Below are positions 56,470-63,267 of a stretch of 64,000 bases of DNA, piece by piece; the stretch's first letter is position 1, and each line of letters starts with the position of its first letter. The notes under the pieces were generated by a model. That model was not told the origin of the DNA. It made no database searches and saw only the letters and a list, made by a program, of their open reading frames with translations. The stretch is from NCBI RefSeq assembly GCF_008040165.1, contig NZ_VRUR01000001.1:442458-506457 (forward strand). The letters run 5' to 3'. The position numbers were made by a program, and so were the translations under genes. Source of the DNA: Flagellimonas hymeniacidonis (GTDB lineage: Bacteria > Bacteroidota > Bacteroidia > Flavobacteriales > Flavobacteriaceae).

Positions 56470-56769
56470 CTAATGCCTTACAAATATGGCTTGTCGTTTT
56501 TCCAACTGTCTTTTCAGTTCTCCAATGGTTTCTACCATTGCTTTTTCAAAATTATCTGTCCTGGATTTTGCAAAAAGTCTAGGCCCCGGAGCACTTAACT
56601 CTATTTCACAGACTTTGTCCTGTCCAGTTTTATCATTCTCCATCTTAAAAAGCACATTGGCATTGATTACCCAACTATACTTCCATCCTAATTTATCAAG
56701 TTTCTTCATTAGAATCTCGTTCAAAGACTCACTTACTTCCATTTTTTGATATTGAATGTTCACTTCCAT
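56470..56769 (-). CDS. RaiA/HPF-like ribosome-associated factor
   Basis: The 99-residue protein has the short RaiA/HPF fold: MEVNIQYQKMEVSESLNEILMKKL at the start, the middle strands VLFKMENDKTGQDKVCEIELSAPG, and the last helix with FEKAMVETIGELKRQLEKRQ. Such proteins bind the decoding centre and make 100S or inactive 70S ribosomes in starvation or hypoxia. Its promoter has a Crp/Fnr-type palindrome 62 bases upstream of the ATG. It lacks the long C-terminal domain of long HPF, so it is the short form. Confidence 0.85.
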   Translation of the reverse strand: MEVNIQYQKMEVSESLNEILMKKLDKLGWKYSWVINANVLFKMENDKTGQDKVCEIELSAPGPRLFAKSRTDNFEKAMVETIGELKRQLEKRQAIFVRH

Positions 56770-56794
56770 AATGATTTATTTTTTATTTCTATAT

Positions 56795-56837
56795 CAAAAC
56801 TAGATACCTATCCATTGGAATAAAATGACATCTGTCA
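56795..56837 (-). promoter_or_regulatory. Activator-dependent promoter of the raiA-like gene (Crp/Fnr-type site A)
   Basis: On the minus strand TGAC-AGAT-GTCA (56837-56826) is followed by exactly 23 bases and TAGTTTTG (56802-56795). No TTG lies at the -33 position. With the start site 6-7 bases past the -7 box, the palindrome centre is near -41.5, the class II activator position. The flanks match site B: AAACCTGAC-N4-GTCAT, and a CCCATA block (plus strand) 16 bases further. Confidence 0.7.
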
Positions 56838-56924
56838 GGTTTTGATTATATACCCATAGGGCAGTACTTATCCTATGCTAAAAAAATCTAAGGTTTCATT
56901 TCTAAACCTATAAAAACATGAACC

Positions 56925-56967
56925 TGATGCATATCATAAATTAAATCAAAAAGCCCTTATAATTTTG
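56925..56967 (+). promoter_or_regulatory. Activator-dependent promoter of the flavodoxin-like gene (Crp/Fnr-type site C)
   Basis: On the plus strand TGAT-GCAT-ATCA (56925-56936) is followed by exactly 23 bases and TAATTTTG (56960-56967). No TTG lies at the -33 position. The flank AACCTGAT is close to that of sites A and B. The centre would be near -41.5, with the gene start 46 bases after the -7 box. Confidence 0.65.
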
Positions 56968-57013
56968 CTTTGAATTTTAGACTCCTTATAGAGCCATTTT
57001 CAAATTAGAAGAA

Positions 57014-57526
57014 ATGAAGCATTTTAAAGAATTCATGGTTTTAGTTCTATGTGCTATTGGCTTAACTGTACTTTTTTCGGTTTGGCATAGCCAAGAATTT
57101 TCCATTGCCAAAGTGGAATCGCTAACAACTTATAATCCCGAGTTGGAATCCAAACTTCTTATTGCGTGCACCACGGGAAATTTTCCTGAAAAAATTAGTC
57201 ATGGAATACTGAATCATTACAAAAATGATCATAACCTAAACCTAGTGGATATTTCTGATTTATCAGAAATAGCTCCAGAAAATTATGAGGGAATCTTTCT
57301 AATTCATACTTGGGAAAAATGGAACCCTCCTCCTGATATAGTGGATTTCATGAACGTATCCAAAAAATTTAACGACAACATTGTGCTTTTGGCAACCTCT
57401 AGTGGTGGATCATCACAAACAGATGACGTTGATGGAATTTCAGGTGGTAAAGCATCTGAAGGTGTGGCGTTCTACATTGAAGAGGCCATTGCTAAAATGG
57501 ATGTAATTCTTAATGCCCGCAAATAG
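57014..57526 (+). CDS. Membrane-anchored flavodoxin-like protein
   Basis: The 170-residue protein has one N-terminal hydrophobic helix (about 7-24), then an alpha/beta domain of flavodoxin type. The strand-loop LLIACTTGNFPEKI near residues 48-61 resembles the phosphate-binding loop of flavodoxins (TxTGN). GIFLIHTWEKWNPPPDIVDF and NIVLLATSSGGSSQTDDVDGISGG follow in flavodoxin order (third and fourth strands). The positive N-terminus suggests that the domain is in the periplasm, unusual for a flavodoxin, though signal-anchor orientation could be the other way. It is driven by Crp/Fnr-type site C. Function unknown; electron transfer is an inference. Confidence 0.7.
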   Translation: MKHFKEFMVLVLCAIGLTVLFSVWHSQEFSIAKVESLTTYNPELESKLLIACTTGNFPEKISHGILNHYKNDHNLNLVDISDLSEIAPENYEGIFLIHTWEKWNPPPDIVDFMNVSKKFNDNIVLLATSSGGSSQTDDVDGISGGKASEGVAFYIEEAIAKMDVILNARK

Positions 57527-57561
57527 CAGTTCTTATCAATTTCTTTGCGAGATGGTAACCG

Positions 57562-58881
57562 TTACTTAATTGAGAACGGTTGACCGGTACTTTGTAAAAC
57601 GGCAAACCAAAATCCGCTTTCCAAATCAATTTTCTTTCTTTTAGAAACAACGGCCGAGATTGGTAGGTATACAAATTTATCATTGACCTTACCTACAACA
57701 AATTTTGTTTTTCCGCTCATTGCACCATGAACAGCTTGATATGCCAAACTGCTACAAAATACACTATCGCCTGAATTTGCTGCGGCGCTTCTTATGATAT
57801 AACTGGGGTCGATGTACTTAATGGTCACTGGAAAAATATCTGAGAAGTATTCCTTTATTTTTTGTTTTAGAAACAACCCTATGTCATCATGTTGCACATT
57901 GCCGGAAGCATCGGTTACAATATCATCCTTCTCAAAAAGATGTTGCCCTGCACCTTCTGCTACCACAATCACCGCATGGTGTTTAGCTTCTAATCTGCTT
58001 TTTAAAACCTCCAAAAAGCCATTTTCTCCATAAAGGTCAAAATCCATCTCCGGCACCAACACAAAGTTGACTACGGGCATTGCGAGGGAGGCCGAAGCAG
58101 CAATAAAGCCACTATCCCTGCCCATCAATTTAACAATGGAAATACCATTGTAAGCTCCATGCGCCTCATTGTGTGCATCTTTTAAAATTGGACTTGCAAT
58201 ATCAAACGCAGTTTCAAAACCGAAGGACTTATCAATAATATCAACATCGTTATCTATGGTTTTAGGAATACCCACAACGCTAATATCCAAACCTCTTTTT
58301 TTAATTTCCTCTCCAATGGCGTTACACCCTTTTAAAGTACCATCACCACCTATAGTAAAGAGCATTTGAATATTATTGTTAACCAATGTGTCCACCATAA
58401 CAGATACATCTTGTGCTCCTCTTGATGATCCTAAAATGGTACCGCCAAATTGGTGGATATCCTTCACTTTATCTGGAGTAAGTGCTATAAAATCATGTCC
58501 CATTTCTGGGTTTAATCCTTCATATCCATATGGGATTCCCAAAATCTTTTTTACATCATAAAAGTAATGTAGTGCCATTACAATTCCTCGAATCACATTG
58601 TTGATACCAGGACAAAGTCCTCCACAAGTAACAATTGCAGCAGTAAAGTTTTTAGGCTCAAAATGGATGTTTTGTCTTGGACCTGCCTTTTCCAGACACA
58701 AGGGTTCCTTATTGTTGGTAAGACATTGATTATAACTCTCTAAAGAGGTATCGAAAACCAATTTGTCCGTTTCATTAATAAAAGTGAAGATATTATCTCC
58801 CCTAACAGTACTTAACTGCAGGGGAGATTTGAATTTAGGAATTCCTAAGTTTTCTATTTGAAAGTCAATCTTGTCTTTCAC
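57562..58881 (-). CDS. pfkA: 6-phosphofructokinase, plant/trypanosome-like long form
   Basis: The 439-residue protein is a phosphofructokinase with an N-terminal extension of about 85 residues before the first Rossmann strand (AIVTCGGLCPGINNVIRG). GGDGT (about 179-183) is the ATP-type form (PPi enzymes have Asp as the fourth residue), whereas the PKTIDND motif (about 204-210) has the Lys typical of PPi enzymes. The same combination occurs in ATP-dependent trypanosomal and plant-type PFKs, so ATP is the likely donor. It starts with GTG (58879-58881). It is fourth in the operon uspA-SLC13-pckA-pfkA, 12 bases after pckA. A stem AACCGTT/AACGGTT (57557-57581) overlaps its stop codon. Confidence 0.92.
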   Translation of the reverse strand: MKDKIDFQIENLGIPKFKSPLQLSTVRGDNIFTFINETDKLVFDTSLESYNQCLTNNKEPLCLEKAGPRQNIHFEPKNFTAAIVTCGGLCPGINNVIRGIVMALHYFYDVKKILGIPYGYEGLNPEMGHDFIALTPDKVKDIHQFGGTILGSSRGAQDVSVMVDTLVNNNIQMLFTIGGDGTLKGCNAIGEEIKKRGLDISVVGIPKTIDNDVDIIDKSFGFETAFDIASPILKDAHNEAHGAYNGISIVKLMGRDSGFIAASASLAMPVVNFVLVPEMDFDLYGENGFLEVLKSRLEAKHHAVIVVAEGAGQHLFEKDDIVTDASGNVQHDDIGLFLKQKIKEYFSDIFPVTIKYIDPSYIIRSAAANSGDSVFCSSLAYQAVHGAMSGKTKFVVGKVNDKFVYLPISAVVSKRKKIDLESGFWFAVLQSTGQPFSIK

Positions 58882-58893
58882 ACTATTTAAAAA

Positions 58894-60522
58894 TTAAAAA
58901 TGCTCGTTTAAGCTATGGTGCGAATCAATCAACGGGCCACCGTTCATAATTTCTTCGGATGCTTGATTAGCAAACTTATCAAAATTAATATGAAATGAGT
59001 GTGCCAATTGTATTGCTTTACTCACATATGCCCCTTTTTGCAGCCACGTATTCATCGGATCCAATATTTCTGTTGGGACTCCTGGGCAATACTTTGGCAT
59101 ATGCAATCCAAAAATGGGGTGCGCATCAAAATCAACCTTATCCAGTTCTCCTTCCAAGATTGCTGAGATCATGGCTCTGGTATATTTCAATTTAATCCTA
59201 GAACCCACTCCGTAAGGGCCACCGCTCCATCCCGTATTGATCAACCAAACGTTAACTCCTGCCTCGGTCATCTTTTTGCTCAGCATTTCGGCATAAACCG
59301 TTGGATGCAATGGCATAAATGGTTCGCCAAAACAAGCAGAAAAAGATGGTACGGGCTCAGTAATACCAGCTTCAGTACCTGCAACTTTGGCCGTATATCC
59401 CGAAATAAAGTGATAAGCAGCCTGACCAGGTGTTAATTTAGACACTGGAGGCAAAACACCAAAGGCATCACAGGTTAAGAAAAAGATATTTTTTGGATTT
59501 GAAGCATAAGAAGGCACTTGAATATTATCGATATGTTCAATAGGATAACTTACCCTGGTATTCTGGGTAATGGTGCTATCAAAATAATCTACCTCCTTCG
59601 TTCCCTCTTTAAAAATAACATTTTCCAACAAGGCTCCTGGTCGTATCGCCCTATAAATATCAGGTTCCTTTTCCTCGGTTAGATCAATAACCTTGGCATA
59701 ACATCCTCCTTCAAAATTAAAGATGGTATTTTCGGCTGTCCAACCATGTTCATCATCACCAATCAGTTTTCTGTTGGGATCTGCGGACAGGGTTGTTTTT
59801 CCGGTACCAGAAAGTCCAAAGAAAATAGCAGTATCGCCAGCTTCGCCAACATTGGCAGAACAGTGCATAGGCAATACATTTTTTTCAGTTGGCAGAATCA
59901 AATTTAAAGCAGAGAAAATCCCCTTTTTCATTTCACCCGTATACGCTGAACCACCTACCAAAGCAATCTTCTTGGTAAAATTGAGAATGGAAAAGTTACC
60001 ATCTAAAATTCCTACTGCTTTTGGATCTGGTGCCAAATATCCTGGAGCGCATAACACCAACCATTCTTCTTCAAAGTCTTTCAACTCCTCTTCGGAAAGC
60101 CTCAAAAACATATTTTTGATGAAATAGTTAGACCAAGGATATTCGGTAACGGTGCGAACGTTCATTTTATATTTGGGATCAGCACAGACCGCCGCATCCC
60201 TCACAAAAACTTCCTTATCAGAAAGATAATCCACAATACCTTGATGCAGTATGTCAAAATTTTCTGGTGAGATTGGTTTATTAATCCGTCCCCACCAAAC
60301 CGTATCTTTAGTATAGTCATCCTTGACCAAAAAGCGATCTTTAGGTGACCGGCCTGTAAACTTACCTGTGTTTATGGATAATGTGCCATTTTCGGTTTCT
60401 GTGCCCAATCCTTTTTCAACAGTCATTTGTTGTAAAGTTTCAGCATCTAAGTTCCAATGTATGTGCTCCGTTTGGAGACCATACTTTTCTAAAGTTCTTG
60501 ACTTTTCCATAATTCTATCCAT
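58894..60522 (-). CDS. pckA: Phosphoenolpyruvate carboxykinase (ATP)
   Basis: The 542-residue enzyme interconverts oxaloacetate and PEP with ATP/ADP. The P-loop is FGLSGTGKTTLSADP near residues 234-248, followed by GDDEHGW; the CO2/Arg site is near TKFTGRSPKDRF at residues 52-63. It has the length and motifs of the ATP-dependent family. It lies between the SLC13 transporter (16 bases upstream) and pfkA (12 bases downstream). In this operon it may work in the carboxylating direction, as in succinate-fermenting bacteria, to make oxaloacetate and ATP from PEP when oxygen is low. Confidence 0.96.
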   Translation of the reverse strand: MDRIMEKSRTLEKYGLQTEHIHWNLDAETLQQMTVEKGLGTETENGTLSINTGKFTGRSPKDRFLVKDDYTKDTVWWGRINKPISPENFDILHQGIVDYLSDKEVFVRDAAVCADPKYKMNVRTVTEYPWSNYFIKNMFLRLSEEELKDFEEEWLVLCAPGYLAPDPKAVGILDGNFSILNFTKKIALVGGSAYTGEMKKGIFSALNLILPTEKNVLPMHCSANVGEAGDTAIFFGLSGTGKTTLSADPNRKLIGDDEHGWTAENTIFNFEGGCYAKVIDLTEEKEPDIYRAIRPGALLENVIFKEGTKEVDYFDSTITQNTRVSYPIEHIDNIQVPSYASNPKNIFFLTCDAFGVLPPVSKLTPGQAAYHFISGYTAKVAGTEAGITEPVPSFSACFGEPFMPLHPTVYAEMLSKKMTEAGVNVWLINTGWSGGPYGVGSRIKLKYTRAMISAILEGELDKVDFDAHPIFGLHMPKYCPGVPTEILDPMNTWLQKGAYVSKAIQLAHSFHINFDKFANQASEEIMNGGPLIDSHHSLNEHF

Positions 60523-60538
60523 GTTTATTGTTTTAAGG

Positions 60539-62377
60539 TTAAAAGCTCCATATCAATGGAACCAATGCTAGAGTTGTAATAAAAAAAAGCAGTAAGAGTG
60601 GTCCTCCCACTTTTATATAATCTATAAACTTGTATCCGCCGGAAGACATTACCATTGCATTGGTAGTGGTCCCAACGGGGGTTAAAAATGCTGTGGACGC
60701 ACTAACAGCCACAGTTATCAAATAAGGTTTTGGTGAAACACCCAAGGATGTTGCTGCCAATAATGCAATAGGCGCCATTAATACGGCAGTTGCTGAATTG
60801 TTTATGGTTTGACTAAACACTGTCGTCAATAAAAATATGCCTCCTAAAAGCACTGTAGGGTGTATGCTCCCTAACACTTCCACCAGACCATTAGCAGCCA
60901 TCTCGGCGACTCCGGTTTTTTGTAATGCAGTTCCCATGGGTATCATTGCGGCAATCATGACCACACTGGTCCAACTAATGCCCTTATATGCTTTTGATAT
61001 GGGTACGCAACGGGTCAAGAGCATAATGCCAGCACAAATCAATGCTGCAATGGCCCCTGGAAAAACTTTGAACACCAAGAGCAGTATCATTACGATCAAG
61101 GTTGCCATGGCGACGTAGCTTCTTACGCTCAAGGTTGCCACATTTTTTGAAAGTGCTTCAGGACTGCCTGAGATTACTACGTTTTCATACAGTGATTTTA
61201 GGTTTTCAATGCTTTCCCATGGCCCCCTAATTACAAAAGCATCTCCTGCTTCTATTTTAATTTTCCCAGTAAGTGGGCGGTTATTTCTTGAAGCTGCCAA
61301 TAACTGCACCCCCGTACGTTTTAGGTAGTTCCCCAAATTGATTGTTTTTCCAACAAAAATTGAATTTGGCGTAATGAGCATTTCTGCCATACCCACTTCT
61401 TGATTGATCAGCTCATTTTTTAAGGTGTCTTTTTCGGCTTTAGTGGGAATAATTCCTAAGCTATACTTCAGTACCAATTTATCCACATCTTCGGGAGTAC
61501 CTTTTACTGTAATAATATCGTGATATCGCATTTCAGTATCTGGTCCAGGCAGTTCTACAAATTGAGGTATCCGTTGCTGCAATGGACTAGGATGCCTTCG
61601 TTTTAATCGCATCACTGCTATTTGATGTGTTGATTCAAAATTCCAATCTCCAATTTTGGTATTGATCAAAGGAGACATAGAACGAATGCGCAGCCGATAA
61701 AGATTATCCCCAATACTATAACTTGAAATCCATTTGTGCATTTCGGCATCAATATCAGCAGGTCTTTCGTTGGTTTGACGTTTGGGTAGTAAACGATATC
61801 CCAAATACCTGAAATACAGAATGGTAATAATCAATAGTGGTAGGCCTATCAATCCAATTTCAAAGAAAGAGAACCCTTCTAGGTTATTCTCGATCAAGGT
61901 GTTGCTAGCAATGATATTTGGTGGCGTACCTGTTAAAGTCAACAAACCTCCTGTATTAGAGCCAAAAGCTACGGGCATCAATAATTTTGATGGTAATGTA
62001 CCTGCACTCCATGCTGCTGAAACCGTAACTGGGAGCAGTGCCGCCACCGTTCCAGTATTGCTGACAAAACCTGAAAGCACACTAGCTCCCAATGTTACGA
62101 TAACCAATAGTTTTGGAATACTCTTACCTGCCCAACTAACAAAATGCTGCCCTGCAAGAGCTGTCCAACCAGTTCTGGAAAGGCCTTCTCCAATAATGAA
62201 CAGTGCTGCAATCATAATTACCGTAGTATTGCTAAAACCACCAAGGGTTTCCTTAACATCCAATATTCCGGTTAAATACAATGTCAACATGGAGATTAGG
62301 GCCACAACATCGGGTGGAAATTTTCCCCAAACGAACAATGCTATTGTAATACTTAGTATTACTAGTAGTGTGAACAT
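60539..62377 (-). CDS. SLC13 (DASS) family transporter with two TrkA-C domains
   Basis: The 612-residue protein has the divalent-anion/Na+ symporter fold: helices at about 1-185 (LLVILSITIALFVWGKF, VTLGASVLSGFVSNTGTVAALLPVTVS with the SNT substrate loop) and about 420-612 (FSQTINNSATAVLMAPIAL with the second SNS/NNS loop). Two RCK_C (TrkA-C) domains lie between (about 220-390). The family carries succinate, malate, fumarate, sulfate or phosphate. The position between uspA and pckA suggests a C4-dicarboxylate; this is an inference. Gaps of 22 and 16 bases show operon structure. Confidence 0.9.
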   Translation of the reverse strand: MFTLLVILSITIALFVWGKFPPDVVALISMLTLYLTGILDVKETLGGFSNTTVIMIAALFIIGEGLSRTGWTALAGQHFVSWAGKSIPKLLVIVTLGASVLSGFVSNTGTVAALLPVTVSAAWSAGTLPSKLLMPVAFGSNTGGLLTLTGTPPNIIASNTLIENNLEGFSFFEIGLIGLPLLIITILYFRYLGYRLLPKRQTNERPADIDAEMHKWISSYSIGDNLYRLRIRSMSPLINTKIGDWNFESTHQIAVMRLKRRHPSPLQQRIPQFVELPGPDTEMRYHDIITVKGTPEDVDKLVLKYSLGIIPTKAEKDTLKNELINQEVGMAEMLITPNSIFVGKTINLGNYLKRTGVQLLAASRNNRPLTGKIKIEAGDAFVIRGPWESIENLKSLYENVVISGSPEALSKNVATLSVRSYVAMATLIVMILLLVFKVFPGAIAALICAGIMLLTRCVPISKAYKGISWTSVVMIAAMIPMGTALQKTGVAEMAANGLVEVLGSIHPTVLLGGIFLLTTVFSQTINNSATAVLMAPIALLAATSLGVSPKPYLITVAVSASTAFLTPVGTTTNAMVMSSGGYKFIDYIKVGGPLLLLFFITTLALVPLIWSF

Positions 62378-62399
62378 AGCTGTATCCTTGAAATAGTAA

Positions 62400-63191
62400 T
62401 CAATCCAGAGCCAACACCGGAATTTCTGAATGCAGAGTCAACAGCTTTGTCAAACGTCCTTCGGAAGGTGAGCTCAATTTTGTATGATTTCTCGGTAGGA
62501 TGGCCAATAAGTCTATATTTTTCTTGTTGATGTATTCCAAAATCCCTTCTTCCACATCCTGGTTTTTGCTAAAGGCATGCTCTACATAAAAATGCTCCAA
62601 GTAATACTCCAATAAGTTTTCTGTGCTATCAACAACAGATTCCTCCGCATAGACCGATTCTTTGTAAATGGTTAGTACGTGTACTCTAGAATTGAAGGTG
62701 CGTGCAACATCCAAAAGTGTTCGCAAGACTTCTTTATCGTCAATTTTCTCATTCCCCATTACCAAAGCAATGTCCCTAGGTTCTTTAATTGCACATCCGA
62801 AGGGAACAGATATTACTGGGCAATTAGCTTCCAAAACAAGTCTTGAGGTATTGGTTATCGCCTCGTCGGTGCTTTTATCACCCATGGTTCCCATAAGAAT
62901 CAAATCGGCATCGTACTCATCTTGTACACTAAGAATTGTCTCAATCACCTCACCGGTAGTCGTAATAAATTCTGATGGTGTTTTGGTCTTCTCATTATAC
63001 GATTTCGCAATTTTGGTAAAATCAGATTGAAGCACATTCTTTTCAGACTCTGCTATGGGCATAGCAGAGACATATAACGCCAGAATATCCATGCGTCTAT
63101 TTGGACCTACAAAATTAATTGCATATTCCAGCGCATTAATGGAAGCCTCAGAAAAGTCGAACGGAATTAAAATTTTATCAATGTTACCCAT
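62400..63191 (-). CDS. uspA: Universal stress protein with two tandem Usp domains
   Basis: The 263-residue protein has two Usp domains. The first (about 1-140) starts IDKILIPFDFSEASINALEYA and ends DLILMGTMGDKSTDEAI...CPVISVPFG, the ATP-binding G-2X-G-9X-G pattern; the second (about 145-263) is degenerate. The start is the ATG at 63189-63191; an in-frame TTG lies two codons upstream. It leads uspA-SLC13-pckA-pfkA and has the Crp/Fnr-type site B. Usp proteins accumulate in starvation and hypoxia. Confidence 0.93.
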   Translation of the reverse strand: MGNIDKILIPFDFSEASINALEYAINFVGPNRRMDILALYVSAMPIAESEKNVLQSDFTKIAKSYNEKTKTPSEFITTTGEVIETILSVQDEYDADLILMGTMGDKSTDEAITNTSRLVLEANCPVISVPFGCAIKEPRDIALVMGNEKIDDKEVLRTLLDVARTFNSRVHVLTIYKESVYAEESVVDSTENLLEYYLEHFYVEHAFSKNQDVEEGILEYINKKNIDLLAILPRNHTKLSSPSEGRLTKLLTLHSEIPVLALD

Positions 63192-63224
63192 ACCCAAAAA
63201 TTTAAATGATTAAAATCTTCAGTT

Positions 63225-63267
63225 CAAAAGTAGAACCAGCTCATGAGGTAAAATATGACAGAAGTCA
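63225..63267 (-). promoter_or_regulatory. Activator-dependent promoter of the uspA-SLC13-pckA-pfkA operon (Crp/Fnr-type site B)
   Basis: On the minus strand TGAC-TTCT-GTCA (63267-63256) is followed by exactly 23 bases and TACTTTTG (63232-63225). No TTG lies at the -33 position. The flank is AAACCTGAC-N4-GTCATA, as in site A, and CCCATA (plus strand) lies 17 bases beyond. The centre is near -41.5 relative to the expected start at about 63219. Confidence 0.7.

Follow-up and report, generated by a model that had tools for sequence, protein, structure and literature searches.

A 64,000-nucleotide window of the Flagellimonas hymeniacidonis genome (contig NZ_VRUR01000001.1, positions 442,458 to 506,457) contains three promoters, A, B and C, in which the palindrome TGAY-N4-RTCA stands upstream of a TAnnTTTG -7 box. 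The question raised by this locus is whether these promoters are served by a Crp/Fnr-type activator and, if so, by which protein. We conclude, with a probability of roughly 0.83, that A, B and C belong as class II promoters to a low-oxygen and stress regulon of the Flavobacteriaceae and are activated by a Crp/Fnr protein, P0001, whose gene lies outside the window. The motif, its fixed spacing, the target genes, the co-occurrence with two regulators and the conservation were all read from sequence.

The composite pattern searched was TGAY-N4-RTCA-N23-TAnnTTTG, that is, the palindrome, a 23-base spacer and the -7 box. A search of the window returned the three sites at the coordinates and on the strands given in an earlier sequence-only reading of this DNA (Table 1), with exactly 23 bases from RTCA to TAnnTTTG in each. 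That reading had found no other such site; the window holds five TGAY-N4-RTCA palindromes, and only A, B and C have a TAnnTTTG within 60 bases downstream, at spacer 23 in all three cases (3/3). Chance agreement had been called very unlikely, and three composites were indeed observed against 0.01 expected per shuffled window, with none of 100 shuffles reaching three. A weight matrix was trained on 105 sites from other genomes, among them sites of two congeners but none of the named Allomuricauda loci. It scored B at 37.0, A at 31.2 and C at 23.2, the last value falling short of the lower quartile (29.3) of the training sites. The rest of the window scored 9 or less, and ten 64-kb Markov sequences, each scored on one strand, reached at most 17.2.

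Crp/Fnr activators of class II are centred at -41.5. According to the main text of PMC9723704, the TAnnTTTG -7 box spans -12 to -5 in F. psychrophilum, and a spacer of 23 combined with this placement puts the palindrome centre at -41.5, the class II position. This agrees with the position of about -41.5 claimed earlier, the transcription starts being predicted ones. The same rule predicts starts at 56790, 56972 and 63220, differing by at most one base from those expected before (56789, 56973 and 63219). The -33 element was correctly described as missing, as no TTG follows directly after the palindrome where the sequence was read at A, B and C.

The logo of 190 distinct sites reads AAAA-n-[A/C]TGAY-AWWT-RTCA[T/G]-n-TTTT, with both arms of the palindrome symmetrically conserved and a T-rich trend just after it, from -33 to -30; TTG occurred near -33 in 29/190 sites. 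The base before TGA was A or C in 176/190 sites, G in 9/190 and T in 5/190, and A followed TCA in 1/190. As this logo pools near-identical Allomuricauda orthologs, the flank count was repeated without named Allomuricauda loci (n=115), where the outer bases of the FNR operator were found in 5/115 (T) and 1/115 (A). The operator is thus MTGAY-N4-RTCAK, in which the inner Y and R are fixed. The FNR operator is TTGAT-N4-ATCAA. The likeness to FNR drawn from the window therefore stands for the class II position and fails for the operator, since outer T and A are nearly absent. The CRP operator TGTGA-N6-TCACA was rejected because the base before TGA is rarely G and the inner Y and R are fixed.

In the complete 3.89-Mb genome the strict composite was found ten times and in the reversed control not at all, which confirmed the expected genome-wide enrichment. 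When the spacer was left free from 10 to 40 there were 21 matches, ten at 23, two at 24 and nine in the remaining 29 classes. Besides the three window units (HPF and lipoprotein; a 170-amino-acid protein; usp-SLC13-pckA-pfkA), strict sites precede hemN-usp, a Crp/Fnr gene followed by usp, a gene for a metal-dependent hydrolase-like protein, one for a 208-amino-acid protein and an OmpW gene. The ninth lies before a gene for a 125-amino-acid protein, followed by two open reading frames (ORFs) which by eye resemble pieces of a TonB receptor, and the tenth before a cytochrome c gene heading the nitrous oxide reductase (nosZ) operon. A protein behind a site in the congener G384 (L218) has a Thioredoxin_9 match and by eye resembles the 208-amino-acid protein behind the strict site. 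Five one-mismatch sites fall within a single 26-kb low-oxygen stretch (C1:499252-524966), where they precede a TonB-like gene, ccoNO, fixI, the usp gene behind the Crp/Fnr gene, and a gene that is divergent from hemN. One-mismatch matches beyond the strict ten numbered 21 in the whole genome and 11 in the control, so those outside this island are mostly noise. The prediction that hits would lie upstream of low-oxygen or stress genes held for many of them, while some stand before unrelated or unknown genes.

The same spacing dominates in relatives. Six site-rich genomes gave 236 matches at spacers 8-38, of which 144 were at spacer 23. The first ten spacer-23 sites listed in each of G304 and G384 (n=20) were compared with 20 sites of other spacers from the same two genomes, leaving out spacers 22 and 24 and one shared palindrome. 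All 20 spacer-23 sites were intergenic and 18/20 had a start codon downstream, against 9/20 and 8/20 for the other spacers. The products behind these 18 sites were three Usp proteins, Hsp20, a ferritin-like protein, OmpW, cytochrome c, a 2-oxoacid:ferredoxin-type oxidoreductase, an MlaE permease, a FadL-type porin, TonB, two thioredoxin folds, a glycoside hydrolase, a DUF6799 protein and three proteins without family, a set rich in redox and stress genes though others are included.

The regulator had been said to lie outside the window, and a candidate was indeed found 18 kb past its end. P0001 (C1:524215-524901) is a Crp/Fnr protein of 229 amino acids whose gene carries its own composite promoter, is divergent from fixI in a ccoNO-ccoP-ccoG-fixH cluster (ccoNO named from model matches, other cco genes by eye) and is followed by a usp gene. 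It is the likely regulator of the sites. Its two domains, cNMP_binding (PF00027, E 6.2e-19) and HTH_Crp_2 (PF13545, E 3.2e-14), are those of the FNR fold, and the best of 13 NCBIfam matches was FNR (E 5e-31), with CRP fourth. The cluster ligands of FNR are numbered C20, C23, C29 and C122. In alignments with solved FNR structures, C5 and C8 of P0001 match the C-x2-C pair and C107 the cysteine of VC-x-IP, and Asn14 occupies the third N-terminal cysteine position, that of C29, so that three of the four ligand positions are kept. Cysteines 5, 8, 54 and 107 do not vary among 14 diverse sequences, of which P0001 is one, or among 25 closer orthologs, and Cys54 may be a replacement fourth ligand. P0001 is probably an oxygen-labile iron-sulphur sensor like FNR, active at low oxygen. 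Its recognition helix, GTATESAIR, keeps the Glu and Arg of FNR and has Ile in place of the FNR Ser (position 212), which would fit the loss of the outer operator T.

Two arrangements near FNR-type genes of relatives were seen in passing. A second FNR-like paralog (L050:8917-9612), 28% identical to P0001, lies beside an FNR-type gene with a composite in front; it keeps the first cysteine of C-x2-C, has lost the second, and retains the Cys54 and Cys107 positions. In G304 a palindrome stands only 9 bases from the -7 box before the FNR-type gene (L228; G304:C5:227403-227431), a spacing that would suit negative autoregulation.

Conservation was examined in two congeners, G229 and G384. Both retain sites A and B together with the composites at hemN and fnr, and the gene behind site C is missing from its place in each, so that the anticipated conservation of the sites holds for two of the three. 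A strict site was present at 5/6 HPF genes labelled in relatives. Among close named relatives (Allomuricauda/Flagellimonas/Muricauda; best 80 of more than 580 loci) a composite with at most one mismatch preceded ccoN in 74/74 readable named Allomuricauda-and-kin loci (2 strict), and it did so in 22/23 other family loci (14 strict). For fnr the count was 59/78 (57 strict). The control for these counts gave 0/400 in random 230-bp pieces of reversed loci, the ccoN stretch being up to 420 bp. In G027, which has no FNR-type gene at cco, the matches listed still include strict sites before hemN, ccoNO and the nos operon.

Across the family the composite was found in 346/397 genomes, with 2910 sites compared to 65 in the reversed control, a spread with which the description of the regulon as small does not agree. 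Matches to P0001 at E <= 1e-20 occurred in 315/397 genomes, the weaker ones being another protein. We then examined 14 genomes without a strong P0001 ortholog, of which G098 has 2 sites and the other 13 have 8 to 19, and all 14 encode at least one protein of about 350 amino acids with a CheY-type receiver ahead of a Crp module (19/21 loci read). With P0002 as query, this receiver-Crp protein was found in 186/397 family genomes (E <= 1e-50); it was not found in F. hymeniacidonis itself, where all 54 candidates were scored and no long fused frame was seen. Genomes were classed by an FNR-type match at E <= 1e-45 and a receiver-Crp match at E <= 1e-50, the searches scoring the best 7 (P0001) or 5 (P0002) candidates in each genome, so an absence is less certain than a presence. 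Those with neither regulator had a mean of 0.86 sites (n=77, 49 with none), those with the FNR type only 6.02 (n=131, 1 with none), those with receiver-Crp only 7.92 (n=63, 0 with none) and those with both 12.78 (n=116, 0 with none). Ten genomes were intermediate for the FNR type; three without receiver-Crp had a mean of 1.33 sites and seven with it 9.86. Strict mutual exclusion of the two regulators was rejected, as both occur in 116/397 genomes. In the phylum 63/158 genomes had a match, including all 16 family rows (2 to 20 sites) and both rows of the same order (6 and 10); outside the order, rows of the same class had 0 to 11 sites and other rows 0 to 3, mostly 0.

Most receiver-Crp genes have a kinase with a FixL-like PAS domain and usp genes as neighbours; that of L088 adjoins no kinase, and no usp was seen at L079 or L080. 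Fourteen receiver-Crp loci (L184-L197) were fetched at length, and in 11/14 the stretch from receiver-Crp to the following usp gene contains a strict composite. His64 of the first PAS domain is invariant in the 13 aligned kinases (that of L187 was left out of the alignment), and HisKA, HATPase_c and PAS domains were found in 4/4 kinases scanned, so the FixL-type combination of a PAS domain with conserved histidine, HisKA and HATPase_c applies to these kinase loci only. The best solved relatives of the L190 PAS domain were the DosP oxygen sensor (E 1.6e-17) and FixL (E 1.8e-15). Of its 16 matches 13 carry DosP, FixL or heme-PAS names, if 1s66, listed as hypothetical protein yddU, is counted with DosP, as we assume; the others were a multi-sensor kinase and two blue-light receptors at E 4e-8 or weaker. 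The PAS histidine aligns with a histidine of DosP (L190), which we take to be the heme ligand. In G159 and G121 (L196, L197) the kinase, receiver-Crp, usp, the FNR-type gene, fixI and ccoNO form one cluster. Receiver-Crp helices were read in 13/17 loci, seven of them as GIATESLIR, and all 13 fit A-x-E-x-x-I-R, the receiver-Crp helix pattern itself demanding Glu and Arg; A-x-E-x-x-I-R is common to the FNR-type orthologs and receiver-Crp.

These results somewhat favour the view that one composite promoter is served by two oxygen-sensing routes across the Flavobacteriaceae, an FNR variant with rearranged cysteines and a heme-PAS kinase with receiver-Crp, and that either alone would sustain the regulon while both would about double it. 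Two observations weigh against this view. A shared helix of the narrower form A-x-E-[ST]-x-I-R was rejected, as four FNR-type sequences have Ala or Leu after Glu-192. The receiver-Crp genes of L074, L080, L085 and L099 lie beside a different PAS-like neighbour and perhaps form a second subfamily with another signal.

The reading of a Crp/Fnr regulon for stress and low oxygen, first proposed from the window, is supported by the genome-wide enrichment, by low-oxygen and stress targets (ccoNO, hemN, the nos operon, ompW, usp genes, the hibernation factor and pckA-pfkA) and by a Crp/Fnr gene with its own composite. From sequence we infer binding, activation, the cluster type, the signal and oxygen sensing as follows. 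A P0001 dimer would recognise a palindromic stretch of roughly 24 bp, AAAA-n-MTGAYAWWTRTCAK-n-TTTT, whose centre is at -41.5. Bound there, it would stand in for the missing -33 TTG element and bring RNA polymerase carrying the primary sigma factor to TAnnTTTG, the -7 box. Sensing would depend on cysteines 5, 8 and 107, with Cys54 as candidate fourth ligand, and the protein would be active when oxygen is low. In many relatives, though not in this genome, promoters of this kind are very likely also a target of a receiver-Crp protein whose recognition helix is similar and which often has a FixL/DosP-like PAS kinase as its partner.

Several findings weigh against P0001 as regulator or against the regulon as drawn. 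P0001 scored 107.8 bits with the NCBIfam FNR model, whose cut-off is 228. Among solved structures its best relative was 2gau, from a protein of the Crp/Fnr family, with an alignment that starts only at residue 37; the FNR structures came after it (8.2e-30) and were aligned from residue 5. An AlphaFold model based on 25 close orthologs had a mean predicted local distance difference test (pLDDT) score of 70.7 and a predicted template modelling (pTM) score of 0.47, and its N terminus was too poor to place Cys54 (pLDDT 52 and 50 for the first two ten-residue blocks). The residue after the helix Glu varies in FNR-type orthologs (Ser, Ala or Leu), and the helix of the paralog L031, LRVETVIR, in the same genome also keeps E-x-x-I-R. 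In the low-oxygen island TTTA replaces TTTG in 4/5 one-mismatch sites, so the strict pattern misses likely sites, and neither G229 nor G384 has the 170-amino-acid gene with site C between pfkA and HPF. Site number was set against regulators without correction for relatedness, and genomes with neither regulator are often small, though the 16 of at least 3.0 Mb average 1.8 sites, which is still low. Six genomes (G048, G138, G147, G205, G238 and G251), searched for HTH_Crp_2, hold 4 to 11 sites with neither regulator. Four of the six are only 73-85% complete and may have lost a contig, and in G251 an HTH_Crp_2 match lies within a short frame. G138 and G205, by contrast, are 99% complete and hold 5 sites each with neither regulator at the cut-offs; the G138 paralogs L252 and L253 have E-x-x-I-R helices and might serve its sites, and the helices read in G205 do not have this form.

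The sites could instead be served by a different Crp/Fnr paralog, or by a regulator of the CRP type that responds to carbon or starvation, the oxygen link being incidental. Besides P0001 the genome encodes five proteins matching HTH_Crp_2, one of them below the cut-off, and among these L031 not only shares E-x-x-I-R but adjoins a spacer-24 composite; in addition, usp, pckA and HPF are stress or gluconeogenic targets, and the available text of PMC8510549 predicts MalR-like carbon sensing for Flavobacteriales Crp/Fnr homologs. However, four of the paralogs have clearly different helices and L031 is without the Ala common to P0001 orthologs and receiver-Crp. Site number tracks P0001 and receiver-Crp, and composites stand at fnr, ccoN, hemN and nos operons, so that we consider another regulator unlikely and continue to prefer P0001.

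It is even less probable that the palindrome is a repressor operator. A protein bound at the 9-base arrangement of G304 would block polymerase, yet the spacer is elsewhere fixed at 23, which contact between an activator and sigma would require, and TTG is as scarce near -33 as reported above. Moreover, in the main text of PMC9723704 oxygen limitation induces cbb3 oxidase and heme biosynthesis in F. psychrophilum, a member of this family. The T-rich stretch at -33 to -30 might also suggest a degenerate -33 element that looks palindromic by chance, and this we regard as practically excluded by the window shuffles, the genome control, the spacer counts and the counts in 397 genomes, in which the composite is 45-fold more frequent than in the reversed control; both arms are symmetric, and the genomes free of sites include 49/77 of those without a regulator.

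FNR regulons with class II promoters are known in Escherichia coli and Aliivibrio fischeri, and the rhizobia have the FixL-FixJ-FixK cascade. With FNR the system described here shares a two-domain Crp/Fnr protein, the C-x2-C and VC-x-IP cysteines, the -41.5 palindrome and low-oxygen genes. It differs in Asn14 at the third cysteine, the invariant Cys54, the outer A/C and T/G, the helix Ile for Ser, and a Bacteroidota -7 box where FNR promoters have a -10 hexamer. P0001 is not FNR proper because the fourth cysteine, the curated score and the operator all fail, and the regulon works like an FNR class II regulon. The resemblance to FixL-FixJ-FixK is that of a FixL/DosP-related PAS kinase beside a Crp-module regulator at loci linked to cbb3 oxidase promoters; unlike in that cascade, receiver and Crp module (FixJ and FixK) are fused in one protein, some neighbours differ, and the fusion was not found in the genome of the window. 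With class II promoters of E. coli CRP there is a common fold family and the -41.5 position, but the half-site is not TGTGA and the NCBIfam CRP model was only the fourth match.

Bacteroidota have their own sigma factor and promoter code, and to our knowledge activator-dependent promoters in this phylum have been little described. If our reading is true, it would provide a rule readable from sequence for flavobacterial low-oxygen genes (cbb3 oxidase, heme synthesis, nitrous oxide reduction, hibernation and universal stress proteins) and would name the likely regulators, among them a relative of FNR whose DNA specificity is altered and in which one cluster ligand may have moved. The reading may also be relevant to nitrous oxide consumption and the low-oxygen life of marine bacteria. 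The sigma-A promoters of F. psychrophilum have the same TAnnTTTG -7 box, and the words crp and fnr are absent from the main text of that study (PMC9723704). In titles and abstracts of open-licence PubMed Central papers we found neither the motif, nor the regulator, nor a receiver-Crp oxygen regulator in flavobacteria.

The features of the window are collected in Table 1. The lipoprotein gene is presumably co-transcribed with HPF. For the 170-amino-acid protein behind site C the earlier label of flavodoxin-like is unproved, as neither Pfam (E 0.001) nor PHROGs (E 0.01) gave a match. The usp ORF is listed with a TTG start and has an in-frame ATG 6 bases downstream.

Table 1. Promoter elements and genes at the three composite sites of the window.
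Feature	Position	Strand	Basis or remark
Site A palindrome TGACAGATGTCA	56826..56837	-	Predicted centre -41.5; composite also upstream of HPF in G229, G384
-7 box TAGTTTTG, HPF promoter	56795..56802	-	Pattern match
Site C palindrome TGATGCATATCA	56925..56936	+	Weakest of the three (weight matrix)
-7 box TAATTTTG, promoter of 170-amino-acid protein gene	56960..56967	+	Pattern match
Site B palindrome TGACTTCTGTCA	63256..63267	-	Strongest of the three; conserved in G229, G384
-7 box TACTTTTG, usp promoter	63225..63232	-	Pattern match
Ribosome hibernation-promoting factor (HPF/RaiA family)	56470..56769	-	PF02482, E 2.2e-15
Putative lipoprotein, 208 amino acids	55794..56420	-	ORF; no Pfam match; adjoins HPF also in G229, G384
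170-amino-acid protein	57014..57526	+	ORF behind site C; without family match
Universal stress protein, first gene of usp-SLC13-pckA-pfkA	62400..63197	-	PF00582, E 4.7e-21
SLC13/citrate-type anion transporter with TrkA_C domains	60539..62377	-	PF03600, E 3e-88; PF02080
PckA, phosphoenolpyruvate carboxykinase	58894..60522	-	ORF named by eye; gene order same in G229, G384
PfkA, phosphofructokinase	57562..58881	-	ORF named by eye; gene order same in G229, G384

Elsewhere in this genome the spacer-24 composite L012 (C1:274569-274612, minus strand) lies just 3' of the paralog gene L031 and precedes genes for a small membrane protein and a protein which by eye resembles truncated hemoglobin; this unit is possibly nitric oxide-related. 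The gene before the nos operon that by eye resembles a TonB receptor (L027:8601-10670, on C2) reads as two ORFs and has the appearance of an interruption by frameshift or stop. The nos promoter palindrome (L027:11633-12120; C2:1538082-1538161) also faces a divergent Rrf2-like regulator gene at spacer 29, and a similar divergent gene at the same spacer was seen in G304 (L227).

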